The position numbers and the translations under genes were made by a program. The notes beneath the pieces were generated by a model, which made no database searches, was not told the DNA's origin, and was given only the letters and a program-made list of their open reading frames with translations. A stretch of DNA of 27,048 nucleotides from a virus, in the IMG/VR virus record IMGVR_UViG_3300018079_000034, positions 1-27,048 of that record; one strand, given 5' to 3'. This document shows positions 4,109 to 25,888 of the stretch, piece by piece (position 1 is the stretch's first letter; every line of letters starts with the position of its first letter).

Positions 4109-4510
4109 ATGATAGCTACAGTTTGTAAGTCCTGTCGAATAGTAATCAAAACAATAACAGATAGATGTAGATGGTGCGGCTCACAACACGTTGAAGTTAA
4201 GTTTGTTAATGAGACTGAAATAATACATAAACATGGTCATGACTACTTAAGGGAGAGAAAGAAAAAAATGAGTAAACCAGAAAATGTAAAATGTCCTGAG
4301 TGTGACGGAGAAATGGTATCACGTAAGAGTCAATATGGAGTATTTTGGGGATGCAAACAGTTCCCCAAGTGTAAAGGAACTAGAGATAGTATGGGACGTA
4401 GTAAAGCAGAAGCTAAGGCAGAACGTGATGCTGAAAAGGATAATAAAGAAGAAGATAATAGTGAATGGCAAAGAAATACTGAAGATAAGATATCATTTAA
4501 TCGGAAATAA
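4109..4510 (+). CDS. Two-part zinc protein with topoisomerase-type C4 zinc finger
   Basis: ATG 4109 has GCAGGG eight bases upstream and is preferred over GTG 4100. Residues 6-24 carry CKSC and CRWC, a classic zinc ribbon. After a basic linker comes CPECDGEM...GC...CKG, the C4 finger found in the C terminus of bacterial topoisomerase I (zf-C4_Topoisom). The last 40 residues are a highly charged helical tail. Such fingers bind single-stranded DNA in topoisomerase I; here there is no catalytic part. An internal in-frame ATG at 4268 follows AGGGAGAG, so a shorter product with only the second finger could also be made. Confidence 0.75.
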   Translation: MIATVCKSCRIVIKTITDRCRWCGSQHVEVKFVNETEIIHKHGHDYLRERKKKMSKPENVKCPECDGEMVSRKSQYGVFWGCKQFPKCKGTRDSMGRSKAEAKAERDAEKDNKEEDNSEWQRNTEDKISFNRK

Positions 4511-5104: not shown

Positions 5105-7565
5105 ATATGTAAATGGAGTCGGACCACTAGAGCCAGATTTGATGGCTATAGGTGAAGCTCCTGGTAAACAAGAGGATGACACAGGTATTCCATTCCATCC
5201 AGATGCACCATCAGGAAGAATAATAACTGATTGTTTAACAAAGGCTGGAGCTAGACGTTCTGAAGTTTATATCACAAATGTATCTAAATATCAGCCACCA
5301 TTCAATGATTTCAAGAAGTTATTTCTTATTGACATAGACATTAATGAGCAAATAAAGAATCTTTGGGATGATGAGATATTCAAATTACGTCCTAAATGTA
5401 TTCTAGCTATTGGAGATGAGGCTCTACAAGCTACTACTGGATATTCCGGAATTCTAAATTATCGTGGTAGTATATTATTAGCAAAGGATGGAGTTACAAA
5501 GGTAGTTCCTACAATACATCCAGCCGCTTTGTTCAATCGAGGTGATAAAGGTGGACTTGAATACACATATCTCAAACTTATTGAAGCAGATATTGCAAGA
5601 GCTGTTGAAGAATCCAGAACAAGGAAGCTTAACTTACCAGATAGACAACTTGATGTTTGTCACAGTTCATTGGACTTGTATAGATTCTTTGACAAATATA
5701 AACAGCTTGATAAAGCAGTTACAGACATTGAATCAATTAACTGTGTTCCTGTGTGCATCGGTTTTGCATTCAATAAACAACACGCCATTTCGGTGCCTTT
5801 ACTTAACTCCATTGGTAAGCATAGACTTACTGATATGGGAGATAACGAGCTTGATGAATGCTGGAGACTCATTGATACACAATTACGAAGACTTAAACTA
5901 GTTGGACAAAATCTAAAATATGATGAATTTAAGTTAAATTTAATTGGATTTGAATTACCAAATGTCTATAGTGATACTCTAATTAAAACAAGAGTTATAT
6001 TTCCAGAATTACCAATTAAACAATTACATGTTCAAAGTAGTCTCTGGACAAGAGAGCCGTTTTACAAGGATGAAGGTAAAGAATTCAAGCTGGGTAAGCA
6101 AAACATTGAACAGTTCTTTAAGTATAATAGTAGGGATTGTGCAGTCACCTATGAAATAGATGAGGTTCAGGAACAAGACTTAATTGATTTAAGTGAAGCT
6201 CATCATGTTCCATTGGTAGATTATTATTATAATTATATGATGAAGAAACATAAGTTTTATTTGAAGATGGAAAATAATGGCTTTGCTGTTAATGTTGCAA
6301 GGCAGAAAGAACTACGAAAAAGATACACAGAGATGGCATTAGTTGTTCATCAGAGAATTAGCGACGCAGTGGGTCACGAAGTAAATGTCAATAGTTATCC
6401 ACAGATGTTTGAGTTATTATATAACGAGATGAAATTTAAGTATATGAAGCGTAATCCAACGTCAGAGGATACGATTGTAGCATTACTGGGGAATCATGCC
6501 AAAACAAAAGAAAAGAAAGCCATCCTCACTGACTTACTTGAAGAGAGAAGAATCAGAACTCAAAAATCTAGATATATCAATTTCAATCCAGATTACGATG
6601 GAAGATGCAAAACGTCTTTCAATATTTCAGCAACAGAGACTTGTAGGAGTTCTACGTCGATTCTCAAAAAGCCAGTTAGGCCAAAGAAAATCGGACTTGC
6701 GTTTCATACAATATCTAAGCATGGGAGACTGGCAAAAGACATACGTAGCATGTTTATTCCAGATAAAGGGACTGTCTTCCTTGCAGCAGATTCTAGCCAA
6801 GCTGAACCAAGAATAGTAGCTGTGCTATGTGAGGACTGGGAGCTTCTAAAAGCATTTGATGATAAAATAGATATCCATAGAAGAATGGCTGGTTTTATAT
6901 TTGGATATACTAAAAGTTTAGAATTGGGAGTCAATCCAATATTAGTAGTTGATATCTTAGAGAAAGATGGACCAGAAAGGTTTTGTGGCAAAAAGACACG
7001 TAATGCAGGCAATTATAACATGGGTAAGAATAGGTTTATGGTTGAGTTTAATACTGACGCTCAAAAGTTTGATATTGCTATGTCTATTAGTGAGTGGCGC
7101 GCTGGACAGATGCTTGACTTATTTCATACGGCATCACCTAGAATCAGAGGCAAATTTCATCAGGATATTATTGATTGTCTTCAAAGCACACGAACAATTA
7201 TCGACCCATATGGGGGAGTTAGAATTTTCAATGGGAGAATGGATGATGAATTATATAAAGAGGGATTTGCCAATATTCCGCAGAGGACTGTTGCACATTT
7301 AGTTCAGGGAGCCGCTCTCAAGATAGATGATGAATTAAATGGTGATAGTGCTTTCTTGTGGCTCAGTGAAGACCACGACTCATTAAAAATGCAAGTCCCA
7401 GCCGCTAACTGGGAGCCATATGCTAAACTAATGAAGAAGCATTTTCTTACTCCTATTGACTTTTCAACTTACTGTAGTTTGAAGAGAAACTATACATTAG
7501 TAATTCCATGTGATATTGAGATGAGTGATACTAATTACGCAGAAATGAGAAAGGTAAAAATATAA
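5097..7565 (+). CDS. Family A DNA polymerase with UDG-like N-terminal domain
   Basis: This 822-residue protein joins three modules. Residues 1-165 match the uracil-DNA glycosylase family 4 fold: GEAPGKQEDDTGIPF (19-33), TNVSKYQPP (60-68) and HPAA (141-144). Residues 205-350 are a DEDDy 3'-5' exonuclease: D210/E212, N272/D276 and Y343/D347. Residues 390-822 are a DNA polymerase I-type palm and fingers: motif A aspartate D565 in ADSSQAEPR, motif B with K632/K633 and Y640, motif C H760-D761-S762. The phage SPO1 polymerase is known to carry the same type of N-terminal domain. Here the Fe-S cysteines of family 4 are absent: no CxxC at the start, and Tyr65 replaces the cysteine of KCRPP. Motif C has Ser where Glu is usual, leaving both essential aspartates. 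It is surely the replicative polymerase; glycosylase activity is uncertain. Confidence 0.95.
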   Translation: MPRYVNGVGPLEPDLMAIGEAPGKQEDDTGIPFHPDAPSGRIITDCLTKAGARRSEVYITNVSKYQPPFNDFKKLFLIDIDINEQIKNLWDDEIFKLRPKCILAIGDEALQATTGYSGILNYRGSILLAKDGVTKVVPTIHPAALFNRGDKGGLEYTYLKLIEADIARAVEESRTRKLNLPDRQLDVCHSSLDLYRFFDKYKQLDKAVTDIESINCVPVCIGFAFNKQHAISVPLLNSIGKHRLTDMGDNELDECWRLIDTQLRRLKLVGQNLKYDEFKLNLIGFELPNVYSDTLIKTRVIFPELPIKQLHVQSSLWTREPFYKDEGKEFKLGKQNIEQFFKYNSRDCAVTYEIDEVQEQDLIDLSEAHHVPLVDYYYNYMMKKHKFYLKMENNGFAVNVARQKELRKRYTEMALVVHQRISDAVGHEVNVNSYPQMFELLYNEMKFKYMKRNPTSEDTIVALLGNHAKTKEKKAILTDLLEERRIRTQKSRYINFNPDYDGRCKTSFNISATETCRSSTSILKKPVRPKKIGLAFHTISKHGRLAKDIRSMFIPDKGTVFLAADSSQAEPRIVAVLCEDWELLKAFDDKIDIHRRMAGFIFGYTKSLELGVNPILVVDILEKDGPERFCGKKTRNAGNYNMGKNRFMVEFNTDAQKFDIAMSISEWRAGQMLDLFHTASPRIRGKFHQDIIDCLQSTRTIIDPYGGVRIFNGRMDDELYKEGFANIPQRTVAHLVQGAALKIDDELNGDSAFLWLSEDHDSLKMQVPAANWEPYAKLMKKHFLTPIDFSTYCSLKRNYTLVIPCDIEMSDTNYAEMRKVKI

Positions 7566-18274: not shown

Positions 18275-19564
18275 TCACGTCCAAAATGGAATGTATCGTA
18301 CAGCGGCTCCGTCAAGAATTTCAATATATCCAGATGGATTATTTGATGGGACACCACCAGTCCATGTAGTTGCTGGAGTATCACTAGTTGCTGTTATTTT
18401 AAAATTTGGATTACCTGCTGAAATAGCACTCAAATCAATTTTAACCCCTGATGCAATTGCCTGGAAATCTCCACTATTTGCAAATCTCCAAATACTAACA
18501 GCAGTTACAGATGCATTTGGAGTAGTTTGAATAGCAATTTCTCCACCACCATGTGTAGAATCATAATTTTCAGTTGCTATGAAGTTAAAAGCAGCGGAAG
18601 CATGAGTTAAAAATGCACCAGAACCATAACCTCTTGCTTGGAACGAAAATATTTGATCTCCATTTAATGTTGCTGATGGAGACGATTGACTTCCTCTAGC
18701 TCTTCTAGCTGTAATATTAGCACTAGTTGCTACACTAACTGCATTAAAGCTATCTAAAACTACTGAATAATCAGCATCAGAAGCTGCAGCAAAACTCGCA
18801 AAAGGATTACTAGCATATCCTAAATGACCAATAAATCCAGTTGAAGCAATTCTTAATCTCTCTATTGGTGAAGTAGCACCATTTGGAATTGTTCTAAAGC
18901 TTATATAAGACTCATGATTAGAGCCACTCCAATTAGAACCTACACGAAAAGCAATTTGAGCAGAAGTATCACTAAATCCTAATGCATATTCACTCCAATC
19001 AGTAGCAGAACCATCATATCCACGTCCATCAAGTATTAGAAGATAATCATCAGTTTGCAATGTAGTTGGTGAAGCAAGAGTTCCTCGTGCAGCAATACCA
19101 GTGAAAATTGGTTGTGGAACAACTGCACCACCGGAAAAATGTTGATGACGAATAACTGATTCACAAGGATTAGCATTTGACTGCCTACGAAACCATCCAA
19201 TCCAGTCTCCGCCATAAAAATCTTTAGATGTAATAATAAATCCAGATAATCCATATTCTTTTATATCACCAATACTTACTGGCCCAAGTATTCCTTGTTG
19301 GGCATCAATTTGCCTATTAAATAATAATTCATTAAATGGATCACTACTACCATCCATTCCGCTATCTAATGAAATTCCTACTCCTGGTATTCCTTGAACA
19401 CCTTGTGGTCCTACTGGTCCTATTGTAGTGCTACCACTGGAAACAGCATTAGTTAATTCAGAAGTAGATTTAATTAGGTTATAAATGACTTGATATAGAG
19501 GATTATCCTTCTGTTGTAACCCTGTATTTAGTAATTGTGCAAATAGTCGTGATGGATCGAACAT
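18275..19564 (-). CDS. Tail fibre protein with collagen-like segment
   Basis: 429 residues. The N-terminal helix (1-45) is followed by a short collagen-like Gly-X-Y run (GPVGPQGVQGIPGVG, about residues 49-63), typical of trimeric phage fibres. The rest is a long beta-rich body with repeated aromatic/Ser/Gly strands (TDDYLLILDGRGYDG, then SYISFRTIPNG, IERLRIASTG) as in trimeric fibres. The end lies at the RYIPFWT terminus. There is no chaperone-type intramolecular cleavage motif that I can see. It likely recognises a host receptor. TAATG coupling to the preceding gene. Confidence 0.82.
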   Translation of the reverse strand: MFDPSRLFAQLLNTGLQQKDNPLYQVIYNLIKSTSELTNAVSSGSTTIGPVGPQGVQGIPGVGISLDSGMDGSSDPFNELLFNRQIDAQQGILGPVSIGDIKEYGLSGFIITSKDFYGGDWIGWFRRQSNANPCESVIRHQHFSGGAVVPQPIFTGIAARGTLASPTTLQTDDYLLILDGRGYDGSATDWSEYALGFSDTSAQIAFRVGSNWSGSNHESYISFRTIPNGATSPIERLRIASTGFIGHLGYASNPFASFAAASDADYSVVLDSFNAVSVATSANITARRARGSQSSPSATLNGDQIFSFQARGYGSGAFLTHASAAFNFIATENYDSTHGGGEIAIQTTPNASVTAVSIWRFANSGDFQAIASGVKIDLSAISAGNPNFKITATSDTPATTWTGGVPSNNPSGYIEILDGAAVRYIPFWT

Positions 19565-21034: not shown

Positions 21035-22548
21035 TAATCTGTATCCGCACCTATGACTATCTCATCGATATTATGAATTGCTACTGTATTAACACCCATT
21101 TGATATGACCACGGTGCCCACTTTATCTTTTTATAATCAAATCCATTACCATAATTGCCACATAGAAGTCTTCGGTCTGGTAATGCACAATAAATTTCTT
21201 TCTGGATTGGTGCATTAACAATTTGAATAAGCCTAAAATCATTCCTATCAAGATTTTTCCAAAAATCTTCAATTTTCCAAGTTAACTCTGGAGTTAAGTA
21301 TCGACCATTAAATACTGATATACCCTGGTAAGTACATATGATAAGAAAATCAACAGAAGAAGAACCAGAATCTAATACTGTGGCAATACCATGAACACAC
21401 GTACCTAATGCATTATCTATGTTTACAAGTATCCAACTAGATGGAACATCACCATTATCTGCATATGAAACAGTTCTTGCACGTTTGAATACATAGAAGA
21501 CATCACGTAATTCTTGCGAATTAGTAATTGGATTTCCATCTAAAGGAGTAACTATAAGACCATCTATTTGACTAATTGCTTCTGGTTCTCCTAGTGCTGA
21601 TACCAAAGTCAAAGAAATATCATTAAATGTAGTAGATAAACAAAGACGATTATGATATAATGCAAGAACAGCACCAGCCGGAATTTCTGCAAAGTTATCT
21701 AGTAGATGCGAAGCATCATCCAGTAAATCAGCATCGAAGAATGATATGTTATTCAATACTGTTGTGACATTATCATTAATTGTTGCATTTGGAACGAAGT
21801 AAAATGTATATCCTGTAGTATTACCATTATAACCAGTAATTACTTTAGTAGCAACAAGATGCCTCTTAGTAACAGTTGCTCCACCAACCGGAACAGTAGA
21901 GAATGAGACAGAGAATGTTCCACTAGTATTAAATCCAGTAATAGCTCCTGGTGCTGTTAGATAGCCAGAATTTGTTTCAGCAACGAAAGCAAATAGATGA
22001 AACCCAGCATCTGTATTTCCTGCTGCGCCATTTGCAATAGTTAATGCACCTGCTAATGGTGAACCAGCGGCTTTACGAGCGGCTGTTCCATCACCTGCAT
22101 ACACATAAAGAAATTGACTAGATAGCCCCTTTTCAATGTTTAAATCACCAGTAACAAATGTTGTAAATGGACTAATATATGCTCGTCCTGCATATGAAAC
22201 AAATGCAAAATCAGTCATTCCAACAATAGATAATAGTGGCCCAAAAACAGTAGTTGAATTTACAACATGATGAATACTACCAGTGTTTGTAGCATCATTA
22301 AACGTCAATACGATCAATGTATTACCAGTTGCTATTGGATAATTATAGATTCGTTTAACATTTGATAATGGAACAGCTACATCCTGGCTAATTCCTATTC
22401 CGTCTCTAGTTCCAAACGATGATGTGCCAACAAATTTTATATTTTCACAATCCTCAAAATGATCTAATGGTGCATTTTCAGGATCTCCACGTTGCCATAA
22501 GCCATTGAATTCAGATATAACTACTGGAGAATGATCACGAAGTTTCAT
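21034..22548 (-). CDS. Large tail protein, possibly nozzle/beta-propeller, 504 aa
   Basis: The sequence begins FNGLWQRGDPENAPLDHFEDCENI, split as an arm, and then has GTRDGIG, repeated hydrophobic strands ending in aromatic residues, and DRRLLCGNYG near the end. This start, 'NGL..R...E.AP..H..DC.NI', is the usual opening of phage tail proteins that form a ring or nozzle under the head. The body looks like repeated four-strand blades (RIYNYPIA, FAFVSYAGRAYIS, LYHNRLCLS, DFLIICTYQG), which suggests a beta-propeller as in P22-like stabilisation proteins. That comparison is inference. It starts about 21 bases after the structured element at 22570-22659 and has no clear Shine-Dalgarno. Confidence 0.7.
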   Translation of the reverse strand: MKLRDHSPVVISEFNGLWQRGDPENAPLDHFEDCENIKFVGTSSFGTRDGIGISQDVAVPLSNVKRIYNYPIATGNTLIVLTFNDATNTGSIHHVVNSTTVFGPLLSIVGMTDFAFVSYAGRAYISPFTTFVTGDLNIEKGLSSQFLYVYAGDGTAARKAAGSPLAGALTIANGAAGNTDAGFHLFAFVAETNSGYLTAPGAITGFNTSGTFSVSFSTVPVGGATVTKRHLVATKVITGYNGNTTGYTFYFVPNATINDNVTTVLNNISFFDADLLDDASHLLDNFAEIPAGAVLALYHNRLCLSTTFNDISLTLVSALGEPEAISQIDGLIVTPLDGNPITNSQELRDVFYVFKRARTVSYADNGDVPSSWILVNIDNALGTCVHGIATVLDSGSSSVDFLIICTYQGISVFNGRYLTPELTWKIEDFWKNLDRNDFRLIQIVNAPIQKEIYCALPDRRLLCGNYGNGFDYKKIKWAPWSYQMGVNTVAIHNIDEIVIGADTD

Positions 22549-22569
22549 AATTTAATTCGCTCATAAAAA

Positions 22570-22659
22570 GGGCCATCCTACTTGTCCCTCTTCCTATTCT
22601 TTATCAACACGGAGCAATGATAAAGTCCCACGGCAAGAGTTAGTATCATAGGATGGCCC
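22570..22659 (-). ncRNA. Long multi-helix RNA element followed by U5 (terminator or structured RNA)
   Basis: On the minus strand a perfect 11-bp helix closes the element: GGGCCATCCTA (22659-22649) with TAGGATGGCCC (22580-22570). Inside is a 7-bp helix, CTCTTGCC (22639-22632, one bulged G) with GGAAGAG (22594-22588), then an 8-bp helix CTTTATCA (22625-22618) with TGATAAAG (22606-22599) around an 11-base loop. Twenty-six base pairs in 90 bases is far beyond chance. Five T's (22569-22565) follow the closing helix on the minus strand. It stands between the beta-helix gene and the large tail gene. It is a candidate terminator/attenuator or noncoding RNA. Confidence 0.6.
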
Positions 22660-22669
22660 AACTCACTAA

Positions 22670-23575
22670 TTACGCAGGAATACCAAAATCAATAGCATCC
22701 TGTAAGTAATTAACCCATGTATCAGTTGCATTACCAGTGTATCCACCAGCTGGGTCGAATCCAGCATTATCAACATTAAACACATTCATATAAACGAAGT
22801 TACGAAGACCAGTATTTCCTGATGCAAGATTAATAGTAGTAGTTGTTGCTTTAGCAATAACATTATGTAGAAAATCACTATCAACCCAAGCACCAACAAT
22901 ACCATTAACACTTGGTAGAAATCTACTATTGCGAACCATCCATCTTGATGGAATAGCAATTCCCTGATTAGTTACTCTAATAGCAGCTCCGCCTGCACCA
23001 GAGAAGTCCTCAAATGAACAATTTTCAATCAATACGTTAGATGCACCACCAAAATCTTCTAATCCAATAAATCCACCACCCAATCTACATCCACGTAATG
23101 TCAAATGGGAAGCATCTGGATAAGTAGCTGTTTCTTCGCGGTGCATTTTAATACATGCATCATCAGTTGGTCCATTAAAGAAGATGTTCTCAAATGTCCA
23201 ACCTTGTTCTCTTAATTCAATTAGTGGAGTAGCCGCTGCTGGAGATGTAGGAGCTAACCAAGTAGCACCACCACCAGTTGGAACACCGCCGCTAGTAGCT
23301 TGTCTCGGCTGATTAGCGGCTCCAATAACAGTAACATCAAATACACCAAGTGGTGCTATTGCCTGTTCTCTCAATACACCACCAATAACAATAACATCTC
23401 TTGAACGAAGATGAGGTGCTAAAGCAGTAAATGTAGTGAAGGTAAATGCCCCACGGGGACCGTTTCCTTGTGGAAATATATAAAATGCTCTACTTAGTGC
23501 TCCTAGTCCACCAGAACCACGAGCTACATCTCTGTTATCTGTTCTTAACTGTTGCCAAAATCCCGGCATTGTCAT
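22670..23575 (-). CDS. Right-handed beta-helix virion protein (pectate-lyase-like fold)
   Basis: 301 residues with the look of a parallel beta-helix: short strand and turn units such as DVIVIGGVLRE, ELREQGWTFENIFFNG, SHLTLRGCRLGGG, NVLIENCSFEDF and WMVRNSRF, with repeats of about 22-25 residues. In phages such folds form tail spikes or head/neck decoration that cut or bind surface polysaccharide. No conserved lyase catalytic set is obvious. GGAGG lies six bases before ATG 23575. Its place between the adaptor and the large tail gene is unlike most spikes, which lie after the tail genes, so neck or head decoration is possible. Confidence 0.78.
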   Translation of the reverse strand: MTMPGFWQQLRTDNRDVARGSGGLGALSRAFYIFPQGNGPRGAFTFTTFTALAPHLRSRDVIVIGGVLREQAIAPLGVFDVTVIGAANQPRQATSGGVPTGGGATWLAPTSPAAATPLIELREQGWTFENIFFNGPTDDACIKMHREETATYPDASHLTLRGCRLGGGFIGLEDFGGASNVLIENCSFEDFSGAGGAAIRVTNQGIAIPSRWMVRNSRFLPSVNGIVGAWVDSDFLHNVIAKATTTTINLASGNTGLRNFVYMNVFNVDNAGFDPAGGYTGNATDTWVNYLQDAIDFGIPA

Positions 23576-25037: not shown

Positions 25038-25621
25038 TAGTGTATCCTTTCAAAATTTCTGGGCACTATGATTGATTCACCAGTCGCATATGTAGTACCT
25101 TGCAAAGACGACTGTTCCCCAAATAATTCTTCAATAATATTATCTATTCTTTTCTTTTGCGCAACTAATACCTCTTCTGTATTTTCACCATCTGGGTCAA
25201 AATATCTTTTTATAAATCTATTATCTTTATGTTGAACAGAAAGAATTACGCTTATAATTAATTGAATAGCCTCCCATTTTGGAGGAATTGGATTATCATT
25301 CTTATCTCTAAATGTCCAAAGTGGTTCATATGATGTCTGAATTTCTGGTATTTCTTTTTGTTGATTTACTGGAACAGAAACTAACCTCTCAAGAATATAC
25401 ATATGTGGTGCCCACTGCCTATATTTGGGAACCAATCGAGTTTCTACAACAGTTCTTAGATATACTCCAAATGAAGTAATATCTTCGTATTCTCCGAATC
25501 GCCATTCAAACTCCTCATCTCCCCAAGTTATACGCCACATAGGTCTAGATGAAGCTGTATCTATGCCAAATAAATCAGCTAATCGTTTGTTGATTACTTC
25601 AATTGGTTCTGTGAGTTCCAT
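25037..25621 (-). CDS. Conserved head-region protein, 194 aa
   Basis: Characteristic pieces are INKRLADLFGIDTASSRPMWR, split by a strand EWRFGEYEDIT, then VVETRLVPKY, LERLVSVP and SYEPLWTFRDKNDNPIPPKW. I associate this series with a phage family found beside the capsid gene but with no role assigned. It is mixed alpha/beta, soluble, without cysteines. The start overlaps the preceding stop as TAATG. A head completion or scaffolding role is possible. Confidence 0.68.
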   Translation of the reverse strand: MELTEPIEVINKRLADLFGIDTASSRPMWRITWGDEEFEWRFGEYEDITSFGVYLRTVVETRLVPKYRQWAPHMYILERLVSVPVNQQKEIPEIQTSYEPLWTFRDKNDNPIPPKWEAIQLIISVILSVQHKDNRFIKRYFDPDGENTEEVLVAQKKRIDNIIEELFGEQSSLQGTTYATGESIIVPRNFERIH

Positions 25622-25833
25622 TAGCTATTCAGCTTCCTAAAAGTGCTGTCTTCACCATTCATCAAATCTTTTCTGAATATCATATAATATCGAAATAAAA
25701 ATGGGCTCCTAAAAGTATAATATAGATGGAGAATGTAATCCCCAAATCCATATTGCATTGGATTACGAAATACAGATGGCAAACTATAATACCATCTGTA
25801 TCTAATCAGATAACGATGTTGCAGGATCTTCAT
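25621..25833 (-). CDS. Aromatic-rich small protein, 70 aa
   Basis: Coupled to the next gene by TAATG. The product is remarkably rich in Tyr, Phe, Arg and Leu (RYRWYYSLPSVFR, LHLYYTFRSPFLFRYYMIF), about one-third aromatic, with few acidic residues. The aromatic stretches are not a clean membrane helix since arginines recur every few residues. It could be a small head protein. It lies right after the hairpin at 25843-25866 and has no clear ribosome-binding site. Confidence 0.6.
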   Translation of the reverse strand: MKILQHRYLIRYRWYYSLPSVFRNPMQYGFGDYILHLYYTFRSPFLFRYYMIFRKDLMNGEDSTFRKLNS

Positions 25834-25842
25834 AGAATTTAA

Positions 25843-25876
25843 TGCCGGTTCCTAGCTGAGCCGGCAAGGGCTTTTT
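25843..25876 (-). terminator. Hairpin after capsid genes, candidate attenuator
   Basis: TGCCGG (25843-25848) and CCGGCA (25861-25866) form a 6-bp GC-rich hairpin with a 12-base loop in the 55-base gap after the gene at 25889. On the minus strand TTAAATT follows, a poor T-run; on the plus strand AGGGCTTTTT follows. It could lower transcription of the downstream genes relative to the capsid genes, or act on antisense transcripts. Confidence 0.4.
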
Positions 25877-25888
25877 ACTAGATAACTA

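Follow-up and report, generated by a model that had tools for sequence, protein, structure and literature searches.

Our analysis of the viral record IMGVR_UViG_3300018079_000034 (positions 1-27,048; this whole stretch of 27,048 nt is referred to as the window) revealed a structured RNA element directly upstream of the predicted tail nozzle gene, which belongs to an RNA family with covariation support that appears to be absent from Rfam. On balance, the element is probably a leaky RNA in the shape of an intrinsic terminator that carries a structured insert in its loop, marks the boundary after a swapped-in gene and lowers the level of the nozzle protein.

The element occupies a 121-nt gap (22549-22669) between two minus-strand open reading frames, one ending at 22670 and the other starting at 22548 (Table 1). 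Folding of the minus strand yielded a 90-nt hairpin (22659-22570, -40.1 kcal/mol) in which an outer helix of 12 bp (11 perfect pairs and one weak pair) surrounds a middle helix of 5+2 bp and an inner helix of 8 bp; the three are nested, and the loop enclosed by the outer stem measures 66 nt. Its energy was matched by none of the shuffles (z = -3.66 for the minus strand and z = -4.4 for the plus strand), and the pair probability of the outer stem was 0.97-1.0 when folded in a longer context. Bases of the 5′ flank also take part in the minimum-energy fold, in which GUGAG pairs with UUUAU. The hairpin is a genuine structure and, like the virion genes, is read from the minus strand. The first-pass annotation had proposed three nested helices followed by five uridines on the minus-strand side, as well as a downstream gene that lacks a Shine-Dalgarno sequence and begins 21 nt after the element; folding and inspection of the sequence bore out each of these points, with the U-run lying directly 3′ of the outer stem. 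Two points need amending. The conserved portion starts 9 nt farther 5′, with the flank at 22668-22660. The gap is strictly speaking not the only long one in the virion array, where 25622-25888 leaves 267 nt unless a 70-aa open reading frame inside this longest gap (25621-25833, minus strand) is real.

Table 1. Features of the element and of its surroundings in the window.
Feature	Position	Strand	Basis or remark
Conserved 5′ flank TAGTGAGTT (family consensus TATTGAGTT)	22660..22668	-	9-mer identical in L107, L145; p = 2e-5
Outer stem, 5′ arm GGGCCAUCCUAU	22648..22659	-	fold, family alignment
Internal loop, 5′ strand GAUACUAA	22640..22647	-	identical in L098
Middle helix, 5′ side CUCUU-G-CC	22632..22639	-	fold
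GUGGGA, purine-rich, 5′ of inner helix	22626..22631	-	GGGA at the same place in many relatives
Inner helix, 5′ arm CUUUAUCA	22618..22625	-	fold
Apical loop with UGCUCCG	22607..22617	-	UGCUCCG also in L394
Inner helix, 3′ arm UGAUAAAG	22599..22606	-	fold
Middle helix, 3′ arm GGAAGAG	22588..22594	-	fold
Internal loop, 3′ strand GGACAA	22582..22587	-	GACAA common to L098
Outer stem, 3′ arm GUAGGAUGGCCC	22570..22581	-	fold, family alignment
U5 run	22565..22569	-	sequence; T-tract score 4.0
Tail nozzle gene (predicted), 504 aa	21034..22548	-	AlphaFold model vs PDB
Inserted gene, 301 aa	22670..23575	-	77% identical copy in L024
Adaptor gene, 236 aa	23629..24339	-	Pfam SU10_adaptor
Smaller hairpin UGCCGGCUC..GAACCGGCA at the window's second site	25843..25866	-	between 108-aa gene and 194-aa gene

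The protein encoded downstream was assigned as a tail nozzle protein from its AlphaFold model (mean pLDDT 74), which matches the nozzle and tail-hub proteins P22 gp10, SU10 tail and T7 gp12 in the PDB. About half of the relatives carry the adaptor gene, recognized by its Pfam match, immediately upstream of the nozzle gene. The 301-aa gene, whose product had no match in PHROGs or Pfam, is an insertion between the adaptor and nozzle genes. Elsewhere in the window, a 429-aa protein (18275-19564, minus strand) contains a GPVGPQGVQGIPG stretch resembling collagen and weakly matches a tail-fibre PHROG. Neither the element region nor the nozzle or capsid protein had a match in a phage-isolate collection, the bacterial genomes searched contained no relative, and relatives of the window's DNA polymerase were only ~26% identical. 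All relatives found are uncultivated viral contigs, and the phages that carry the element form an uncultivated, short-tailed group to which no isolate of this collection is close.

A family of 20 members including the window copy shares the purine-rich 5′ flank TATTGAGTT (UUGAGUU), located directly before an outer stem that mostly starts with GGRCY. The common architecture consists of this flank, a GC-rich outer stem of 11-13 bp and usually a U-run, with the next gene following shortly after; the conserved flank purines are able to pair with the U-run. The flank of the window fits a profile built from the remaining members with p = 2e-5, and the two members with an identical flank are both found at the other site described below, behind unrelated genes. 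The first-pass annotation had made its claim dependent on conservation or compensatory changes in relatives, and both were observed: the window carries its outer stem at the family position, all 11 pairs are kept in 20/20 members and 10/11 are changed on both sides, counts that are inflated because members were chosen partly for forming hairpins. The covariation score of the outer stem was 0.81, compared to 0.32 for shuffled and at most 0.20 for slid alignments. The flank, U-run and shuffle tests are free of this selection bias. Rfam searches at gathering and relaxed thresholds gave nothing credible in the window, and none of 21 related loci had a hit at the gathering threshold. Hammerhead and twister ribozymes as well as integron attC sites were dropped by eye, their conserved bases being missing. 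A covariance model (R2) in which an artificial linker of four Ns connects the arms of the outer stems did not find the window; because it recovers only a few of the long elements it was built from and cannot span a 66-nt loop, this miss is uninformative.

Equivalent elements occur at two sites in the relatives and follow unrelated upstream genes. Among 105 distinct nozzle loci, the adaptor gene lies directly upstream in 50 and another gene in 55, and a strong hairpin within 140 nt before the nozzle gene was found in 18/55 loci with another gene vs 2/50 with the adaptor (Fisher p = 1.4e-4). Since four of these 20 hairpins (L163, L007 and, in the adaptor group, L106 and L088) fall within the upstream coding sequence, as judged by position, the intergenic contrast is 16/55 vs 0/50. 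About half of the relatives lack the element, and the genes abut there. At the second site, which precedes the homologue of the 25037-25621 gene, 22/65 distinct loci have a strong hairpin, counted without choosing loci by hairpin. Overall, 75/264 of the relatives' gaps of 40-320 nt contain a strong hairpin vs 1.4 expected from dinucleotide shuffles. The stems contain 92 G-T (G-U) vs 15 A-C mismatches, which our search treated equally, and therefore the selected structure is the RNA of the coding strand. Among elements of at least 56 nt, a T-tract score of at least 2 was reached on the coding side in 16/27 vs 1/27 on the other strand; in some elements (L098, L043 and L057) the U-run is missing. 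One contig, L113, carries the same element twice in opposite orientation (4129-4206, plus; 5246-5323, minus), which is probably an assembly artefact.

The interior of the element varies across the family, from a plain short loop in a few members to a second folded domain in most others. The loop domain is optional, because L062, which has the outer stem of the family, and L123 carry ordinary hairpins at the second site, the former with a GAAA loop and UUUUU close behind; L070 has a loop of 10 nt. When folded alone, the interiors of 31 elements had a mean z of -1.88, and 24/31 were below -1. A site-B subgroup is characterized by a conserved GGGA and a covarying stem capped by an AAUYNN loop, and in its alignment, which was fitted to the model, 14/18 pairs show changes on both sides. 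The corresponding covariance model (R1) did not find the window at E up to 10. Instead, GAUACUAA at one end of the window's interior and GACAA at the other recur in L098, whose stems differ; by a rough count that allows for all element pairs, such a match has a chance of ~1e-5. L098 is the only relative with these internal-loop bases, and among the matches listed, pattern scans of viral contigs with the motif gave only chance hits apart from it. We also considered whether GGGA forms a pseudoknot with the apical loop, which could not be established. Short hairpins with differing stems and the same heptaloop CUAAUAA occur at the two sites in L043, L047, L069 and L141.

We consider the element to resemble an intrinsic terminator because of its GC-rich stem, its U-run, its place after a stop codon and its replacement by plain terminators in some relatives at the second site. 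The 11 perfect pairs of the window copy are followed by UUUUU, a tract of just five whose score of 4.0 is among the highest in the family. The intercistronic element, a GC-rich outer stem and U-run with a second folded domain set into the loop, would mark the 3′ boundary of the gene that has been exchanged into the position separating adaptor and nozzle genes. A fraction of the late transcripts would most likely be ended or attenuated after the inserted gene, their 3′ ends being protected by the hairpin, while the remaining transcripts would read through, and the nozzle protein would be made at a lower level. Only 21 nt separate the stem end from the nozzle ATG and a sigma-70 consensus scan of the minus strand of 22549-22669 revealed nothing resembling a promoter, and thus expression of the nozzle gene must rely on read-through or processing. 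What counts against a terminator are the loop of 66 nt, the U-run that is short here and absent from some elements, and the conserved loop bases (GAUACUAA/GACAA in one pair, GGGA and the AAUYNN loop in the other group), which exceed its needs. The compensated equivalents in relatives and the folded interior support the initial view of an RNA more elaborate than a plain terminator. From the functions it had listed, a terminator, perhaps a conditional one, fits best; a protected noncoding RNA or an RNA for packaging or ejection is unsupported, because about half of the relatives manage without the element and it tracks the inserted gene.

The main rival to this terminator reading is an RNase III-type processing site, at which the long irregular hairpin would undergo a cut that splits the upstream and nozzle mRNAs and determines how stable each of them is. 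We regard such cleavage as possible and less than probable. An intercistronic hairpin that contains an internal loop and lies close to the following start codon would suit it, as would stems that are free to vary while pairing is kept and the several elements without U-run, and the late region of T7 has sites of this kind (PMC5592923). The significant U-run bias, which is confined to the 3′ side, argues against it, as do several short hairpins of 12-14 bp that look like plain terminators (L062, L070). Far less likely is that the hairpin and flank are merely shared sequence for the exchange of tail-gene cassettes, a recombination boundary with no RNA function of its own. Its tracking of inserted genes, its position behind unrelated upstream genes and its presence at two sites would be expected of such a boundary, but the stems diverge widely yet stay paired and the wobbles are strand-specific, and a DNA recombination site would keep its sequence and not its pairing.

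A regulatory RNA, a conditional terminator whose conserved loop domain would be bound by a factor of the phage or host and would thereby control termination ahead of the nozzle gene or its translation, is in our view rather unlikely. Interiors folded beyond chance, the unpaired AAU loop and GGGA of the site-B group, and the bases common to the window and L098 despite different stems all point towards it; loop domains that differ among subgroups, the failure of the site-B model to find the window and members without any loop domain (L062, L070) point away. It is similarly doubtful, and would be a bolder proposal, that the elements represent a new class of conditional terminators in phage virion operons whose conserved, folded loop domain senses a factor from phage or host and tunes read-through into nozzle or head-completion genes during assembly. 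Translational control of the nozzle gene by the element is possible. Leaders that are A/T-rich and lack a Shine-Dalgarno sequence are frequent at the nozzle site among relatives. In the window, an out-of-frame ATG AGC GAA TTA AAT TAT GAA ACT TCG TGA (22564-22535, minus strand) overlaps the nozzle start and could be a short upstream open reading frame. Six other loci (L112, 3245-3289; L114, 3349-3398; L119, L046, L050 and L116) carry another arrangement where an inserted tail gene follows a small gene: a hairpin and then UUCUC-UGU-(hairpin)-(hairpin)-CUGGAGAA, which ends close to the ATG. Judged by eye, this motif forms a three-way junction in which the Shine-Dalgarno sequence GGAGAA would be masked, and it had no Rfam match in the loci scanned.

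The preferred reading, a leaky terminator-like element, suggests a way for modular phages to maintain suitable amounts of their assembly proteins while acquiring new tail genes by exchange. The family adds a covariation-supported RNA, not in Rfam, from a phage lineage without close relatives among the isolates searched.

Conserved hairpins in phage SU10 were looked for in the SU10 paper and not found there. T4-type phages have promoter-early stem-loop (PeSL) cassettes, in which an early promoter stands beside a stem-loop between exchangeable genes. Our element likewise is a stem-loop between exchangeable genes, but it lies in the virion operon and has no adjacent promoter by the sigma-70 consensus scan, which sets it apart from a PeSL. 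It resembles the RNase III R sites of T7 in that intercistronic hairpins divide a late polycistronic mRNA; in contrast to these, its family shows a U-run bias after the stem, and cleavage here is putative. With canonical intrinsic terminators it has in common the GC-rich stem, the U-run and the place just after a stop codon. These are limited to loops of 3-13 nt and stem-loops of at most 59 nt (PMC12207403), whereas the window has a structured loop of 66 nt in a 90-nt hairpin. Standard predictors would therefore miss it, and our own scan of the window did so; since they overlook structured loops this large, similar elements may be common yet unannotated. A precedent is offered by T-phi of T7, a simple hairpin between gene 10 and genes 11/12 that serves the phage's own polymerase; a search for such a phage-type polymerase gave no match in 19 relatives, nor did its positive control. 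Genes 11 and 12 of T7, gp12 being the nozzle, are expressed only via read-through of T-phi (PMC5592923). The window element resembles it as a terminator-like hairpin that lies within the late operon of virion genes and precedes the nozzle gene, which here, too, would be expressed only by read-through, and differs in the folded domain in its loop and in its position directly before the nozzle gene.
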